Shown: positions 13,529-18,853 of the stretch, in pieces
Layout of the letters: every line of letters begins with the position of its first letter
Position numbering within the stretch: the first letter of the stretch is position 1
Assembly (NCBI GenBank): GCA_016870095.1
Contig: VGCI01000004.1
Coordinates: 1 to 64,000 of the forward strand
DNA: 64,000 bases
Direction: 5' to 3'
Source of the DNA: Alphaproteobacteria bacterium
GTDB lineage: Bacteria; Pseudomonadota; Alphaproteobacteria; Paracaedibacterales; VGCI01
The notes under the pieces: model-generated
Database searches by the model: none
Seen by the model: only the letters and a program-made list of their open reading frames with translations
What the model was told of the DNA's origin: nothing
Made by a program: the position numbers and the translations under genes

Positions 13529-15448
13529 GTGGCGGACCCATCTTTGAATGAGCACCGGCCTAAAAAGTCGAATTCTAAATCGCATTCAAAATCGGGGTCT
13601 GTTTTCCCCTGGAAGCGATGGGATATAATCTTGAGCACGGTTGTGCTTAATCTCTTATCCCTTTCCATTCCTCTTTTTGTCTTGCAACTTTATGACCGCG
13701 TTATCCCAAATCAATCATTCGGGACCCTTACCCTACTTGGAATTGCAGTCGGTATAGCTGCCCTTCTGGAAGCAAGCTTACGCTTTAGTCGTGGCTATGT
13801 ATTGAGTTGGCTCGGCATGCACTTTGAACATGGTGCGGCAGTGGGCGCCTTTCAGCATCTGGTTAATGCAACCTTGAATGACCTCAATAAAAGAGGTGTG
13901 GGCGAACATGTTGAAAATATTGAAAGTGCAACGATATTAAAAGAATTTTTAGCCGGACAAGGATTTTTAATCCTGCTAGATCTTCCTTTTGTTTTCTTAT
14001 TCTTAGGAATTATTGCATATTTTTCCCCGCCCATTGCTTTGGCAGCAACTGCAATTTTGGTTGTATTCGTTCTGCTTGCCTGGTTTCTGGGAATCGTTTT
14101 GCGCCGGTATTTGGAAAAGCAACTGGATCTAAACGATCGACGTTATAATTTTATCGTTGAAATTCTCACAAATCATCACACGTTGAAAGCCCTGGGGATG
14201 GAAGATCTTCTTTTGCGTCGTTATGAACGTCTCCAAACCCAATGTTCCGATGTCAATTATAAGGTTTATTTATATTCTGCCGAAGCCCGAGATTTGGGCA
14301 ATATGTTTTCCTATATTTTATTTGTGGGTATCGTTGCTGTGGCCACACTGCAAGTCATCACGTCATCAACATCAGTCGGTATTATGGCAGCTTGCATAAT
14401 TCTTACAAATCGAGCTATGCAACCCATCCAAGCCGCCATGGGCGTTTGGACACGTTTTCAATATTTTACCATTGCCAAGAAACGGATTGAGGATCATTTT
14501 AATTTAAAACTTGAACCCCCTTTGGCACAAGGAATCACTAAACCCATTCAAGGGAAAATTACTTTAAAAAATGTTTGCTTTCAGTATAACGATGATTCAC
14601 CAGAAATTTTGAAGGGAATTGATCTCAGTGTCTCCCCCGGCTCTGCGGTAACGATTCATGGTAAAAATGGGGCCGGAAAAACAACGCTCATGTTAGTCTT
14701 AATGGGTAATCTCCATCCCTCTATGGGAAGCCTTTTGATTGATGATGAGCCCCTATCATCCTACCATTACAGAGATTTACGGCGTCAAATAGCCTACGTG
14801 CCTCCTAAAGGAATTTTATTTCAAGGGACAATCATTGAAAATATGACAATGTATAGGGGTGCAGCTTATGTTGATGATGCCTTAGGACTTTCTCGCCAAC
14901 TCGGATTGGATGAATGGATCCATCACTTACCTCAAGGGTATGATACAAAAGTTGGCGACCAACTTTTTCTTCTTCTTCCCGATGGTATTCATCAACGAAT
15001 TTGCTTAGTAAGAGCATTGGTAAATCGCCCGAAAATCTTAATTTTAGATGAAGCCAATACATCCCTGGATGAAAATGGCGATCAACTGCTCAAACAAGTC
15101 GTCCGAAGCCTTCATGGTGTGGTAACTGTTATATTTGTTACTCATCGCCCCTCTATTCAAGAGATAGCCGATGCCTCATACGAATTAACAGATGGCTTTC
15201 TATTATCTAAGGATAAATTATCTCTTCCTAGAAAGAGGGATGACTTAGATGGAACGTCTTCAGATTCAGAACAAAATCAAGAAACATCTTTGTCATCAGA
15301 CGAAGAAATAAAATCCCCAAAATCAAAAAAGAATGGGGGACAGAAAAAAGAAAACATGAAAAATTTAGCTCCAGGAAATGGAAAAACCGATACTCACTTA
15401 AATATCTCGGCCGATCACTTAGGAATAAATCATGGCAAAATCATTTAA
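13529..15448 (+). CDS. Type I secretion ABC half-transporter 1, degenerate NBD
   Basis: 639 residues. An N-terminal membrane domain (about 30-310) with the PrtD/HlyB-like RVIPNQS loop is followed by a nucleotide-binding domain. Walker A GKNGAGKTT (378-386), Walker B with catalytic Glu508 and H-loop His539 are intact. The signature motif LSGGQ is replaced by LPDGI (483-487), and the Q-loop Gln is Pro426 (VPPK). The last 75 residues are a hydrophilic Ser/Lys/Glu tail. There is no C39 domain. The GTG start sits behind GGGAGA. The gene overlaps its partner by 17 nt and is followed by an HlyD adaptor, so it is probably one half of a heterodimeric exporter; the cargo is unknown. Confidence 0.82.
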   Translation: MADPSLNEHRPKKSNSKSHSKSGSVFPWKRWDIILSTVVLNLLSLSIPLFVLQLYDRVIPNQSFGTLTLLGIAVGIAALLEASLRFSRGYVLSWLGMHFEHGAAVGAFQHLVNATLNDLNKRGVGEHVENIESATILKEFLAGQGFLILLDLPFVFLFLGIIAYFSPPIALAATAILVVFVLLAWFLGIVLRRYLEKQLDLNDRRYNFIVEILTNHHTLKALGMEDLLLRRYERLQTQCSDVNYKVYLYSAEARDLGNMFSYILFVGIVAVATLQVITSSTSVGIMAACIILTNRAMQPIQAAMGVWTRFQYFTIAKKRIEDHFNLKLEPPLAQGITKPIQGKITLKNVCFQYNDDSPEILKGIDLSVSPGSAVTIHGKNGAGKTTLMLVLMGNLHPSMGSLLIDDEPLSSYHYRDLRRQIAYVPPKGILFQGTIIENMTMYRGAAYVDDALGLSRQLGLDEWIHHLPQGYDTKVGDQLFLLLPDGIHQRICLVRALVNRPKILILDEANTSLDENGDQLLKQVVRSLHGVVTVIFVTHRPSIQEIADASYELTDGFLLSKDKLSLPRKRDDLDGTSSDSEQNQETSLSSDEEIKSPKSKKNGGQKKENMKNLAPGNGKTDTHLNISADHLGINHGKII

Positions 15449-17498
15449 TTATTACGATTGTGTCATGCCGTTGTTAGAAGCATTAGGTTGGCAAGGACAT
15501 GCCCGTCGAATTTTTGAGGCCGTTCCGTTTCTGGAAAAACAAATCTCATTAACGGATTTGCGAAATCTCATGGCTAACCTAGGGTATTCCAGTAAAGGTC
15601 ATACCCTAAAGTTACAACAATTACATAGAGATTTATTGCCCGCTTTGTTTGTCACTAAGAGCGGGGAAGTTTATATTTTATCTGAAGAAGAAGATGGAAT
15701 TATCCATGCTGTAGATTGCGAGAAAAGTCAAAAAGTAACGCTTTCAACAACTTCTCGAATAAAAGGGACTGCATACTCATTTTACCAAAAACCTGAAAAG
15801 GAACCCGCCCGCGGCGGTTGGCTTTCTGGTATATTAGAACGTTTCCATTCTTTTATTTATTGGTTAATGGGTCTGGGGTTTTTAACAAGCATACTCAGCT
15901 TAAGCTCCATCGTTTTTATCATGGCTGTTTACGATGAGGTCGTCCCCTCTCGCTCGCAAATTACTCTTGGGTACTTTGTTTTGGGATTGGTTCTAGCTTT
16001 GTGTTGTGTCCAATTCGTGCACATCCTCCAAAATCGCGCTCTATCCTATTTTGGAGCACGCCTAGATTTGATTATTGGGAGTGAAGTCATGCGGCACGTT
16101 ATGAACCTACCCATGGGTTTAGTAGAAGGCGCATCCGTTGCCAGTCAGGTAGCTCGCTTGCGCCAATTTGATGGCATTCGGGAAACATTTACAGGTCCCA
16201 TCGCTAATATTATCCTTGAAGGGCCCTATATGATTTTTTTCCTGATTGTTCTCTTTCTGGTCGCAGGGCCTATCGTTATTGTTCCTTTGCTTATGATATT
16301 TGTTTTTATCATTATGCTTTTCCTAATGGCCCCCGTTTTACGACGATCTACACATAAAGTTTCAACAGCCTCCCTTGAACGGCGAAAATTCCTACTCGAG
16401 GGAACCTCTAACTTAACAACCATAAAACATTTAGCCGCAGAAAAAACATGGGTAGATCGTTTCCAAGAAGTGAGTGCTTCTTTATCCGTAGCTCAAAAGC
16501 AATCCGAACTCCTCTCATCCTTATCTATAAACTTAAGTCAGATGATCATGAAAATTGCTGGAATTTCTGCAATCATTTGCGGGGCCGTTCGTGTCACAGA
16601 AAATTTAATGTCCATTGGGGCGTTGATGGCCGTTGTCCTTCTTGTGTGGCGAGTTCTTTCTCCCCTACAAAGTGGCTTAATGGTGTTGGGACGGTTTGAT
16701 CTCATTATGGAAAGCTTAGAACAAATTAATCGGCTAATGAGTTTACCCTCCGAACGACGTCATGTAACAGAAAGTCCACATCGTTTTGACGGATTGGTTC
16801 GTATTCAAAATGTTGGATTTCGATATCCAAATGACCCCCAACCAGCCATACAAGGTATTATGATGGAAGCCAAACCCGGGGAAATTATTGCAATCGTTGG
16901 CCAAAATGGGTCCGGTAAAACAACGCTTATAAAATTGTTGTTGGGTTTTTATTATCCCCAAGCAGGTTCTATTACAATTGACGGTATTGATATTCGTCAA
17001 TTTGACCCCATGGTTTTACGACAATCCCTTGCCTACGTTCCACAGCAAAATCAATTTTTTCATGGAACGCTTGCTCAAAACTTACTATTTTCTGCTCCCG
17101 AAGCCACCGAAGAACGGATGATTCAAGCTGCAGAAAAAGCAGGATTATTATCTCAAATTATGACATTACCTGAAGGCTTTGAAACAAGAATTGATGAACA
17201 GGTGATGAACATTTTCTCTTCAGGTTTCTTGCAAAAGCTTAACTTAGCACGCGCCTATATCCGAAAATCAAATATTATTATTATGGATGAACCTGGCAAT
17301 ACTCTTGATCAAGAGGGTGATGAAACTTTACGTCAAACCATAACAGAATTTCGCGGAAAAAAAACAGTCATTATGGTCACCCATAGACCGAGTTTAATCA
17401 ATTTAGCCGATCGTGTTTTATCCCTTCACAAGGGTTCTATGCGGGTTTTCGGCCCCAGAGAGAAAGTTCTGGAAGTCATTAAAGGGGAAGTAATATGA
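15432..17498 (+). CDS. Type I secretion ABC half-transporter 2 with C39-like N-domain
   Basis: 688 residues: an N-terminal domain of about 120 residues resembling the inactive C39-like domain of HlyB-type exporters (LLPALFVTKSGEVYIL, no protease cysteine in place), membrane domain (about 145-420) and a nucleotide-binding domain. Walker A GQNGSGKTT (490-498), Q-loop Gln538, Walker B Asp619-Glu620 and the His of VTHRPS are intact, but the signature motif reads FSSGF (595-599). It pairs with the upstream gene by overlap and with the HlyD gene downstream by an ATGA overlap. A TolC-like outer membrane partner is not in the window. Confidence 0.82.
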   Translation: MAKSFNYYDCVMPLLEALGWQGHARRIFEAVPFLEKQISLTDLRNLMANLGYSSKGHTLKLQQLHRDLLPALFVTKSGEVYILSEEEDGIIHAVDCEKSQKVTLSTTSRIKGTAYSFYQKPEKEPARGGWLSGILERFHSFIYWLMGLGFLTSILSLSSIVFIMAVYDEVVPSRSQITLGYFVLGLVLALCCVQFVHILQNRALSYFGARLDLIIGSEVMRHVMNLPMGLVEGASVASQVARLRQFDGIRETFTGPIANIILEGPYMIFFLIVLFLVAGPIVIVPLLMIFVFIIMLFLMAPVLRRSTHKVSTASLERRKFLLEGTSNLTTIKHLAAEKTWVDRFQEVSASLSVAQKQSELLSSLSINLSQMIMKIAGISAIICGAVRVTENLMSIGALMAVVLLVWRVLSPLQSGLMVLGRFDLIMESLEQINRLMSLPSERRHVTESPHRFDGLVRIQNVGFRYPNDPQPAIQGIMMEAKPGEIIAIVGQNGSGKTTLIKLLLGFYYPQAGSITIDGIDIRQFDPMVLRQSLAYVPQQNQFFHGTLAQNLLFSAPEATEERMIQAAEKAGLLSQIMTLPEGFETRIDEQVMNIFSSGFLQKLNLARAYIRKSNIIIMDEPGNTLDQEGDETLRQTITEFRGKKTVIMVTHRPSLINLADRVLSLHKGSMRVFGPREKVLEVIKGEVI

Positions 17499-18853
17499 CA
17501 AACGAAACACCCACAAACATCGTATCAGATAGCACAGACGATCGAAAAGTGAACCGCCAGCTTCCTTCACTTAACCGCTCGCTTCATATTGAAGAGGGCC
17601 GTCCCCCCCATAGCAGTCGGATGAATATTTTAATTGCTTGCGGCATTGTTTTTGCATTTATTGCATGGGCCGCTATTACTCCTATTGATGAAATTAGCGT
17701 AGCAAACGGTCAAATTATCCCCACAGGATTTATAAAATCTGTTCAACATTTAGAGGGGGGCCAAATCACACAAATTAATATTCATGAAGGTGACTTGGTA
17801 AAAGAAGGAGACGTTCTCCTTGTTCTTGATGGAAAAGGTGGACAGTCTGAGCTTGAACAAGCCCTTGCAAAAGAAGCCTCTCTTAAAATAAAAGCCGAAC
17901 GATTACGGTCTTTTGGCTTGGAACAAAAGCCAAATTTTAGTGAATTTGGGGCCGCCTATAAAAGTCTCGTCGAAGATCAGCAGGCCATCTATGACATGCA
18001 AGTCCGGAATCGAGAAGACCAAAGAGCAGTCATCGATAAACAACATGAGCAACAAAAAGCACTCCTCAACCTCCAACGTGGTCAAGAAAAGGACTTACGA
18101 GATCAGCTGGCTATTGTTGAAAAACAACGAGATGTCACTAAAGAACTTTATGAAAAGCGTCTGAAGACGGGTACAGAATATCGAGCCAATGAAGAGAATG
18201 TCTCACGTGTTCGCAAAGAGCTGGATCAAGTAAAGAATCAAATGCAACAAACACGTCAAGCCATTGCAGAAGCTGATAATAAACTTACGGAATTGGGAAC
18301 AAATTTACGCAATGTGGCCTTAACCGAAATGGGCAATACAACAGGAGAAATTGCCCAAGTTAAAGAATCCATTACGAAATTGCAAGATCGCGTCAATCGT
18401 TTAGAAATCAAATCCCCCGTTTCTGGAATTGTAAAAGGGTTGAAAACCAACACTCTAAAAGGAGTTATTCAGCCAGGAGAAGAAATTATGCAAATTGTCC
18501 CGGCCAACGCGATGGAAGTTGAAGCACAAATAAACCCCAAAGACATAGGTAATACCCAAGTTGGTCAAGATGTTACCATTAAGGTTTCCGCATATGATTA
18601 TTCTCGATTTGGAAGTATTGAAGGAAAGCTTCATGCCATTTCAGCTTCCACCTTTTTGGATGATAATAAAAAACCTTTTTATAAGGCTTTCATTAAAATG
18701 AACCAATTATATGTGGGCAAAGACCCAAAGCAAAACCGTATTTCCGTCGGTATGACTGTTGTGGCTGAAATCCACACTGGAGAAAAGACTTTGCTCCAAT
18801 ATCTCACCAAGCCCGTTTATAACGCCGTAAAAACATCCTTTAGGGAGCGATAG
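17495..18853 (+). CDS. HlyD-family periplasmic adaptor
   Basis: 452 residues: a cytoplasmic N-terminus, one membrane helix (about 44-62), a lipoyl-like half (ITQINIHEGDLVKEGDVLLVLDG), a long coiled-coil hairpin (about 150-300), the second lipoyl half (IKSPVSGIVKGLKTNTLKG) and a beta-barrel. This is the standard membrane fusion protein of type I secretion (HlyD/PrtE/LssD). It completes the inner-membrane part of the exporter with the two ABC genes; all three are translationally coupled. Confidence 0.9.
   Translation: MTNETPTNIVSDSTDDRKVNRQLPSLNRSLHIEEGRPPHSSRMNILIACGIVFAFIAWAAITPIDEISVANGQIIPTGFIKSVQHLEGGQITQINIHEGDLVKEGDVLLVLDGKGGQSELEQALAKEASLKIKAERLRSFGLEQKPNFSEFGAAYKSLVEDQQAIYDMQVRNREDQRAVIDKQHEQQKALLNLQRGQEKDLRDQLAIVEKQRDVTKELYEKRLKTGTEYRANEENVSRVRKELDQVKNQMQQTRQAIAEADNKLTELGTNLRNVALTEMGNTTGEIAQVKESITKLQDRVNRLEIKSPVSGIVKGLKTNTLKGVIQPGEEIMQIVPANAMEVEAQINPKDIGNTQVGQDVTIKVSAYDYSRFGSIEGKLHAISASTFLDDNKKPFYKAFIKMNQLYVGKDPKQNRISVGMTVVAEIHTGEKTLLQYLTKPVYNAVKTSFRER

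Follow-up and report, generated by a model that had tools for sequence, protein, structure and literature searches.

The genes considered here lie in a 64,000-nucleotide stretch of DNA (the window: positions 1 to 64,000 of contig VGCI01000004.1, assembly GCA_016870095.1) from an alphaproteobacterium of the order Paracaedibacterales, whose genome (G000) comprises 1.80 Mb in 15 contigs, with the operon on G000:C4. Three genes run head to tail and encode two different ATP-binding cassette (ABC) half-transporters, ABC1 and ABC2, and an HlyD-type periplasmic adaptor; together they constitute a type I secretion system (T1SS) operon in which neither half-transporter carries the LSGGQ signature (Table 1). 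ABC1 and ABC2 overlap by 17 nt, and ABC2 and the adaptor gene by 4 nt. The original prediction of two overlapping half-transporters coupled to HlyD is borne out by the open reading frames (ORFs) and by profile matches: both halves contain ABC_membrane and ABC_tran (Pfam), each thus having a transmembrane domain (TMD) and a nucleotide-binding domain (NBD), and the adaptor scores 360.9 bits against the TIGR01843 cut-off of 208.65, being the only adaptor in the genome above it.

AlphaFold2 models of the two halves have a mean predicted local distance difference test score (pLDDT) of 83 for ABC1 and 85 for ABC2. Ranked by Z score, the structure most similar to ABC1 is HlyB (8dck_B; Z 30.2, root mean square deviation (rmsd) 3.8, 548 residues aligned), and HlyB (8dck_A) aligns along the whole of the ABC2 model, including its N-terminal C39-like domain (CLD) (680 residues, Z 30.6, rmsd 5.2). 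ABCB1 entries rank slightly higher than HlyB for ABC2; many ABC exporters are near-equal in score in the VIA-align and Foldseek lists, and no finer placement was taken from them. The Pfam Peptidase_C39 profile gave no match in ABC2 at E 0.1. In ABC1, residues 574-639 form a tail with pLDDT below 50, and no such tail was seen in the more distant orthologues of the ABC1 alignment. A promoter and terminator scan returned promoters at chance level and was not used.

Table 1. Genes and ATPase motifs of the operon, with positions in the window.
Feature	Position	Strand	Remarks
ABC1 half-transporter	13529..15448	+	639 aa; GTG start; TMD and NBD1, no N-terminal CLD; disordered C-terminal tail
ABC1 Walker A, GKNGAGKTT	14660..14686	+	intact
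ABC1 Q-loop, YVPPK	14795..14809	+	Pro instead of Gln
ABC1 signature, LPDGI	14975..14989	+	family consensus L-P-x-G-phi-x-Q-R
ABC1 Walker B, ILILDE	15035..15052	+	catalytic Glu present
ABC1 H-loop, THRPS	15140..15154	+	
ABC1 C-terminal tail	15245-15445		about 65 residues; Ser/Lys-rich; disordered
ABC2 half-transporter	15432..17498	+	688 aa; N-terminal C39-like domain (CLD), TMD and NBD2
ABC2 Walker A, GQNGSGKTT	16899..16925	+	intact
ABC2 Q-loop, YVPQQ	17034..17048	+	intact
ABC2 signature, FSSGF	17214..17228	+	Ser and Gly4 retained; first Gly and Gln gone
ABC2 Walker B, IIIMDE	17274..17291	+	catalytic Glu present
ABC2 H-loop, THRPS	17379..17393	+	
HlyD-type periplasmic adaptor	17495..18853	+	452 aa; TIGR01843

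ABC ATPases are defined by the LSGGQ motif, and the accepted picture of a heterodimeric exporter is of one canonical site combined with one degenerate site. The window pair departs from this scheme as had been claimed, with LPDGI and FSSGF in place of LSGGQ and no Q-loop Gln in ABC1, and Walker A, the Walker B Glu and the H-loop are present in both halves. To call both signatures degenerate, as the original prediction did, is correct in that neither is LSGGQ and overstated in that the degeneracy is unequal, FSSGF retaining Ser2 and Gly4 and LPDGI Gly4 alone. The other ABC domains of the genome (22 rows, one of them incomplete) read LSGGQ in 13 cases, LSGGE in five, and FSGGQ, LSGGM and FSMGQ in one each; because these are near-canonical, the window signatures are not a matter of chance.

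Consensus residues lost from both halves could in principle indicate an operon that is decaying or damaged by sequencing error, the latter having been named in advance as an outcome that would overturn the case. The reading frames are open, however, both halves give confident folds, and the same class of motif occurs in all 60 pairs of relatives described below. LPDGIHQR of ABC1 is identical in three species (the window species and its sisters L031 and L032) in a codon comparison, and FSSGFLQK of ABC2 in two (L031 ends before the signature), and the latter peptide recurs in a separate fragment from G001 (L264). The proportion of differing synonymous sites (pS) between the sister species is 0.75-0.81 and that of nonsynonymous sites (pN) 0.12-0.19; with synonymous sites saturated, dN/dS is not computable and only pS and pN are given. 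Since the motifs are unchanged at saturated synonymous divergence, with few replacements, both are under purifying selection. A pseudogene or a sequencing error was accordingly rejected as an explanation, and decay or damage of the operon is scarcely credible.

Relatives of ABC1 were sought in the genome_contigs collection (84,980 species per its description), which returned 303 stretches, and the best 80 of these loci (L031-L110) were used. The scan patterns included the ABC1 Walker B motif DEA[ND] and the H-loop motif THRP[SC], and Glu and His retention is not countable on this set. These best 80 loci come mostly from Rhodospirillales and other alphaproteobacteria and from Magnetococcales, with a few metagenome-assembled genomes labelled gammaproteobacterial or otherwise. 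ABC2 was recognised in 76 and HlyD in 69; at the 11 loci without HlyD, the contig ends soon after the last recognised gene. Upstream of the three genes, Rhodospirillales-type loci (L036, L083 and some 15 others) have a DUF2927 protein (its cluster is found in 15 loci) and a 376-aa family with no Pfam match (16 loci), both of which are possible accessory factors.

For counts free of selection on the NBD1 motifs, pairs were drawn by ABC2. Of 387 genomes sampled from the class, 46 contain a member scoring at least 590 bits with a profile built from 28 ABC2 proteins; the best match below these, at 552 bits, is partial (G331), and ordinary exporters begin at about 531. Among 299 genomes sampled from the phylum, 51 rows reached at least 590 bits, 16 of them with open frames of at least 1300 aa, and the second class with members of the family is probably Magnetococcia. 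The resulting sample holds 60 pairs: 47 from the class genomes, 45 of the 46 being represented, and 13 hand-picked from the 51 rows of the phylum sample, with genome and row counts tallied by hand from tables. It contains some near-copies (e.g. L149/L150 and L154/L155); G014/L008, where the ABC2 NBD falls outside the stretch, and a second, single-half copy in G048:C601 were left out. Four further loci met during the pair search (L162, L163, L168 and L201) are ordinary exporters with SGGQ.

SGGQ is present in none of the 120 NBDs of these 60 pairs. In NBD1 the signature has Pro at position 2 in 52/60, Gly at position 4 in 56/60 and Gln at position 7 in all 60, and is best described as a conserved alternative motif, L-P-x-G-phi-x-Q-R, rather than a decayed one. 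The NBD2 signature has Pro, Ser or Ala at position 2 in 24, 18 and 12 pairs, respectively, and Gly4 in 37/60. As to the catalytic cores, NBD1 retains the Walker A Lys in 52/60, the Q-loop Gln in 32/60, the Walker B Glu in 40/60 and the H-loop His in 27/60, and only 13 of the 60 pairs have a whole NBD1 core; in NBD2 the corresponding figures are 58/60, 56/60, 59 of 59 readable and 49/59, and a whole NBD2 core lies opposite a Pro2-Gly4 signature in 37 pairs. The symmetric degradation implied by the original prediction consequently does not hold for the family, in which the NBD1 core is often broken and that of NBD2 kept. In one lineage (L227 and L228, from G241 and G423), ABC1 lacks the Walker B Glu and the H-loop and the H-loop motif of ABC2 is lost (CTYRED), giving a nearly fully non-canonical ATPase.

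Control exporters differ from the family. All 30 canonical LssB-type exporters examined have [LVI]SGGQ, and Ser2-x-Gly4 is found in 57 of 59 non-family T1SS-type ABC domains (counted by hand, with the duplicates L013/L015 omitted) versus 12 of the 120 family NBDs, FSSGF of the window among them. A few controls read LSAGQ, LSSGQ, LSTGQ or FSTGQ, and the two without Ser2 are L193 (LTSEI; G112:C5) and L200 (LPGGL; G175:C1), each of them a lone T1SS-type ABC exporter, without a partner half and with an unusual signature. The pairs form a widespread alphaproteobacterial and probably magnetococcal family from which LSGGQ is gone in both halves. The suggestion of a distinct exporter subfamily is upheld by this common loss in the 60 pairs and by the phylogeny given below.

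An ATP site consists of the Walker A, Walker B, Q-loop and H-loop of one NBD and the signature of the other, and signature changes in human ABC proteins are found in degenerate sites; the portion of this source drawn on here describes no transporter whose working site likewise has an altered signature (PMC7756269). Because in the family the NBD1 core is often decayed and the NBD2 core is kept opposite the conserved L-P-x-G-phi-x-Q-R, we infer one structural and one working site. Site I (Walker A, Walker B and H-loop of NBD1 with the NBD2 signature) would be the classical degenerate, mainly structural site, and site II (Walker A, Walker B, Q-loop and H-loop of NBD2 with the LPxG of NBD1) the working ATPase site. 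The signature Ser normally contacts the gamma-phosphate of ATP; in site II a Pro at the helix start would take its place, with backbone and Gly4 contacts remaining, and in the ABC1 model the post-signature helix begins at residue 485 with Pro484 immediately ahead of it. The altered ATPase cycle of the original prediction is plausible. That the only working site uses its partner's Pro signature instead of LSGGQ, the family being a natural and widespread class of such exporters, is a serious proposal which we advance tentatively. In the window pair, site I would be less degraded than in most relatives, with Glu and His kept opposite FSSGF; residual hydrolysis may occur there, and a two-site cycle is possible for this pair.

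The signature changes might also be functionally neutral, the backbone amides and Gly4 still facing ATP, in which case the motor would behave as any ordinary exporter does and both sites would work. Both window cores have the Walker A Lys, Walker B Glu and H-loop His that this would need, Gly4 is retained in nearly all NBD1 signatures, and a species of the same genus (G002) pairs a normal LSGGQ exporter with the same cargo family, consistent with interchangeability. However, in 37/60 pairs the NBD1 core is missing at least one of Lys (Walker A), Glu and His, which means that two working sites are not the rule in the family, and SGGQ is invariant in the LssB-type controls; we consider neutrality unlikely. 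More doubtful still is a motor in which neither site hydrolyses efficiently, ATP binding and slow release being coupled to another energy source or to very slow cycling. The want of SGGQ in either half of any pair would suit such a motor, but the retention of the NBD2 Glu in every readable case, and of its His in most, is hard to explain if hydrolysis is dispensable.

Several lines of evidence bear on whether the two halves form a dimer with each other. Both halves are found in a single ORF of about 1300 aa at five of the 80 loci (L074, L082, L091, L103 and L106), L096 probably being a cut-off sixth; in the 60-pair sample four are fused, and in the phylum sample L167, L247 and L248 were confirmed by reading as true fusions. 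Distances among ABC1 and among ABC2 proteins across 30 loci are correlated (r 0.885; 0 of 2000 shuffles as high), although shared species history also contributes to this value. Each half does have a complete TMD and NBD, as would be expected of separate homodimers with different substrates and a common adaptor; natural ABC1-ABC2 fusions, conserved gene order, congruent trees and complementary degeneration of the halves speak against such homodimers, which are very improbable. Because of the same gene order, fusions, congruent trees and complementary decay, it is very likely that ABC1 and ABC2 form a heterodimer.

In a tree of 118 rows, built on TMD and NBD after removal of the columns for the signature and for the Walker B Glu, ABC1 and ABC2 are each monophyletic (Shimodaira-Hasegawa-like approximate likelihood ratio test (SH-aLRT) 100). 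A phylogeny had been proposed as a check, and this one separates the two as clades. They are adjacent in the tree (singles branch SH-aLRT 82), but a clade of ABC2 with LssB is not rejected by the approximately unbiased (AU) test (p 0.605, with a log-likelihood 10 higher). A common origin of both degenerate signatures is therefore not upheld, and a single loss of LSGGQ before duplication and two separate losses are both compatible with the data.

The nearest familiar systems are HlyB-HlyD-TolC and the LssB/LapB-type exporters (TIGR03375, TIGR01846), which have in common with the window operon the TMD-NBD fold, a CLD (here on ABC2), an HlyD adaptor and a separate TolC. Known exporters of the HlyB/LssB type are homodimers of a single ABC gene product with LSGGQ, whereas the window has two genes, one CLD per pair and no LSGGQ, and its halves (366.2 and 489.6 bits) fall below the TIGR03375 threshold of 693.1 for the LssB/LapB type. 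The exporters of NHLP bacteriocins, NHLM ABC1/ABC2 (TIGR03796/TIGR03797), are likewise paired peptide or protein ABC exporters, but the window halves reach 203-254 bits against cut-offs of 709-853. ABC2 lacks the Pfam-recognisable C39 peptidase domain that marks the peptidase-containing ABC transporter (PCAT) class, and, with SGGQ absent from every family NBD, neither site has the LSGGQ that a heterodimer with one canonical site would carry. TmrAB, TM287/288, BmrCD and TAP resemble the family in having two different halves and one site degraded by loss of the Walker B Glu and of the partner signature; according to the text consulted their other site is canonical, whereas in the window family the intact-core site, too, has a signature other than LSGGQ (LPxG) (PMC7756269). 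By analogy, the nearest known arrangement is that of RtxB/RtxE in the MARTX system, a four-component T1SS with two ABC proteins that are both needed for secretion, one HlyD-type adaptor and TolC, as set out in the portion of the source used; the gene order is rtxB-D-E in Vibrio versus ABC1-ABC2-HlyD here, compared by description only (PMC3034196). No description of a paired family without LSGGQ was found in open-access PMC text. The motifs are normal within a clade, as had been raised as a possible refutation, but no characterisation of that clade was found in this literature, and the T1SS subfamily is apparently undescribed.

Among the relatives, OEP/TolC genes adjoin the operon, as do genes for long proteins, mostly poor in Cys and rich in Asp and Gly, that contain RTX, cadherin and LamG domains (L084, L109 and L061); seven such giant proteins from seven loci have a common C-terminal block. 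At L098, an OEP/TolC protein with SPOR (peptidoglycan-binding) domains lies directly downstream of HlyD (L098:5131-7968), and proteins of its cluster also occur at L105, L110 and L084. The search for a TolC gene suggested at the outset gave one in the window genome above the TIGR01844 cut-off (551 aa; L251, G000:C7; 296.1 bits against 225.15). The genome has one RTX-like ORF, of 739 aa (G000:C3:195594-197813, equivalent to L249:2095-4314), with a His/Pro-rich low-complexity N-terminus, non-canonical Gly-rich repeats and an RTX-like C-terminal end; each of the other three genomes of the genus has homologues. A search of Pfam and NCBIfam yielded no match to the 739-aa protein, and PF00353 gave weak single matches amounting to 30.8 bits summed. 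G002 has two copies of this RTX-like cargo family (L258/L259).

Taken together, we consider it reasonably probable that the operon encodes a T1SS with an obligate ABC1/ABC2 heterodimer as its motor, one degenerate and one working site, and an RTX-like cargo. The inner-membrane motor would have one CLD per dimer, on ABC2, would be coupled to HlyD and to the TolC encoded elsewhere, and would probably export an RTX-like surface or secreted protein, for which the 739-aa protein is the best candidate. Several points tell against this. Both window cores retain Lys, Glu and His, and the asymmetry is thus drawn from the family; NBD2 lacks the Walker A Lys or H-loop His in 12/60 pairs, so that site II is not always textbook, and in the L227/L228 lineage the H-loops of ABC1 and ABC2 alike are missing residues. 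The search for a cargo did yield an RTX-like candidate, but its gene lies outside the operon and the C-terminal profile of the relatives' cargo matches it weakly (E 0.06). Lastly, G002 (about 90% complete) has the cargo family, and the pair was not found there; a single 728-aa LSGGQ exporter (L263, G002:C2) stands beside a 446-aa ORF resembling an adaptor, recognised by eye. This suggests exporter replacement within the genus, unless the pair is encoded in the portion of G002 absent from the assembly.

Because it is conserved across a large family, the loss of LSGGQ from both halves is best read as a lasting design and not a fault. Pairs in which neither half has LSGGQ and the NBD2 Glu is kept in every readable case provide a natural experiment on the role of the signature Ser, and a T1SS motor of which natural fusions exist is one in which one-site hydrolysis during the threading of very large proteins becomes testable. 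If the proposed site roles are true, the contact between the signature Ser and the gamma-phosphate would be dispensable when a specific alternative motif replaces it, and the secretion of giant proteins could be powered by a re-engineered motor working strictly at one site.

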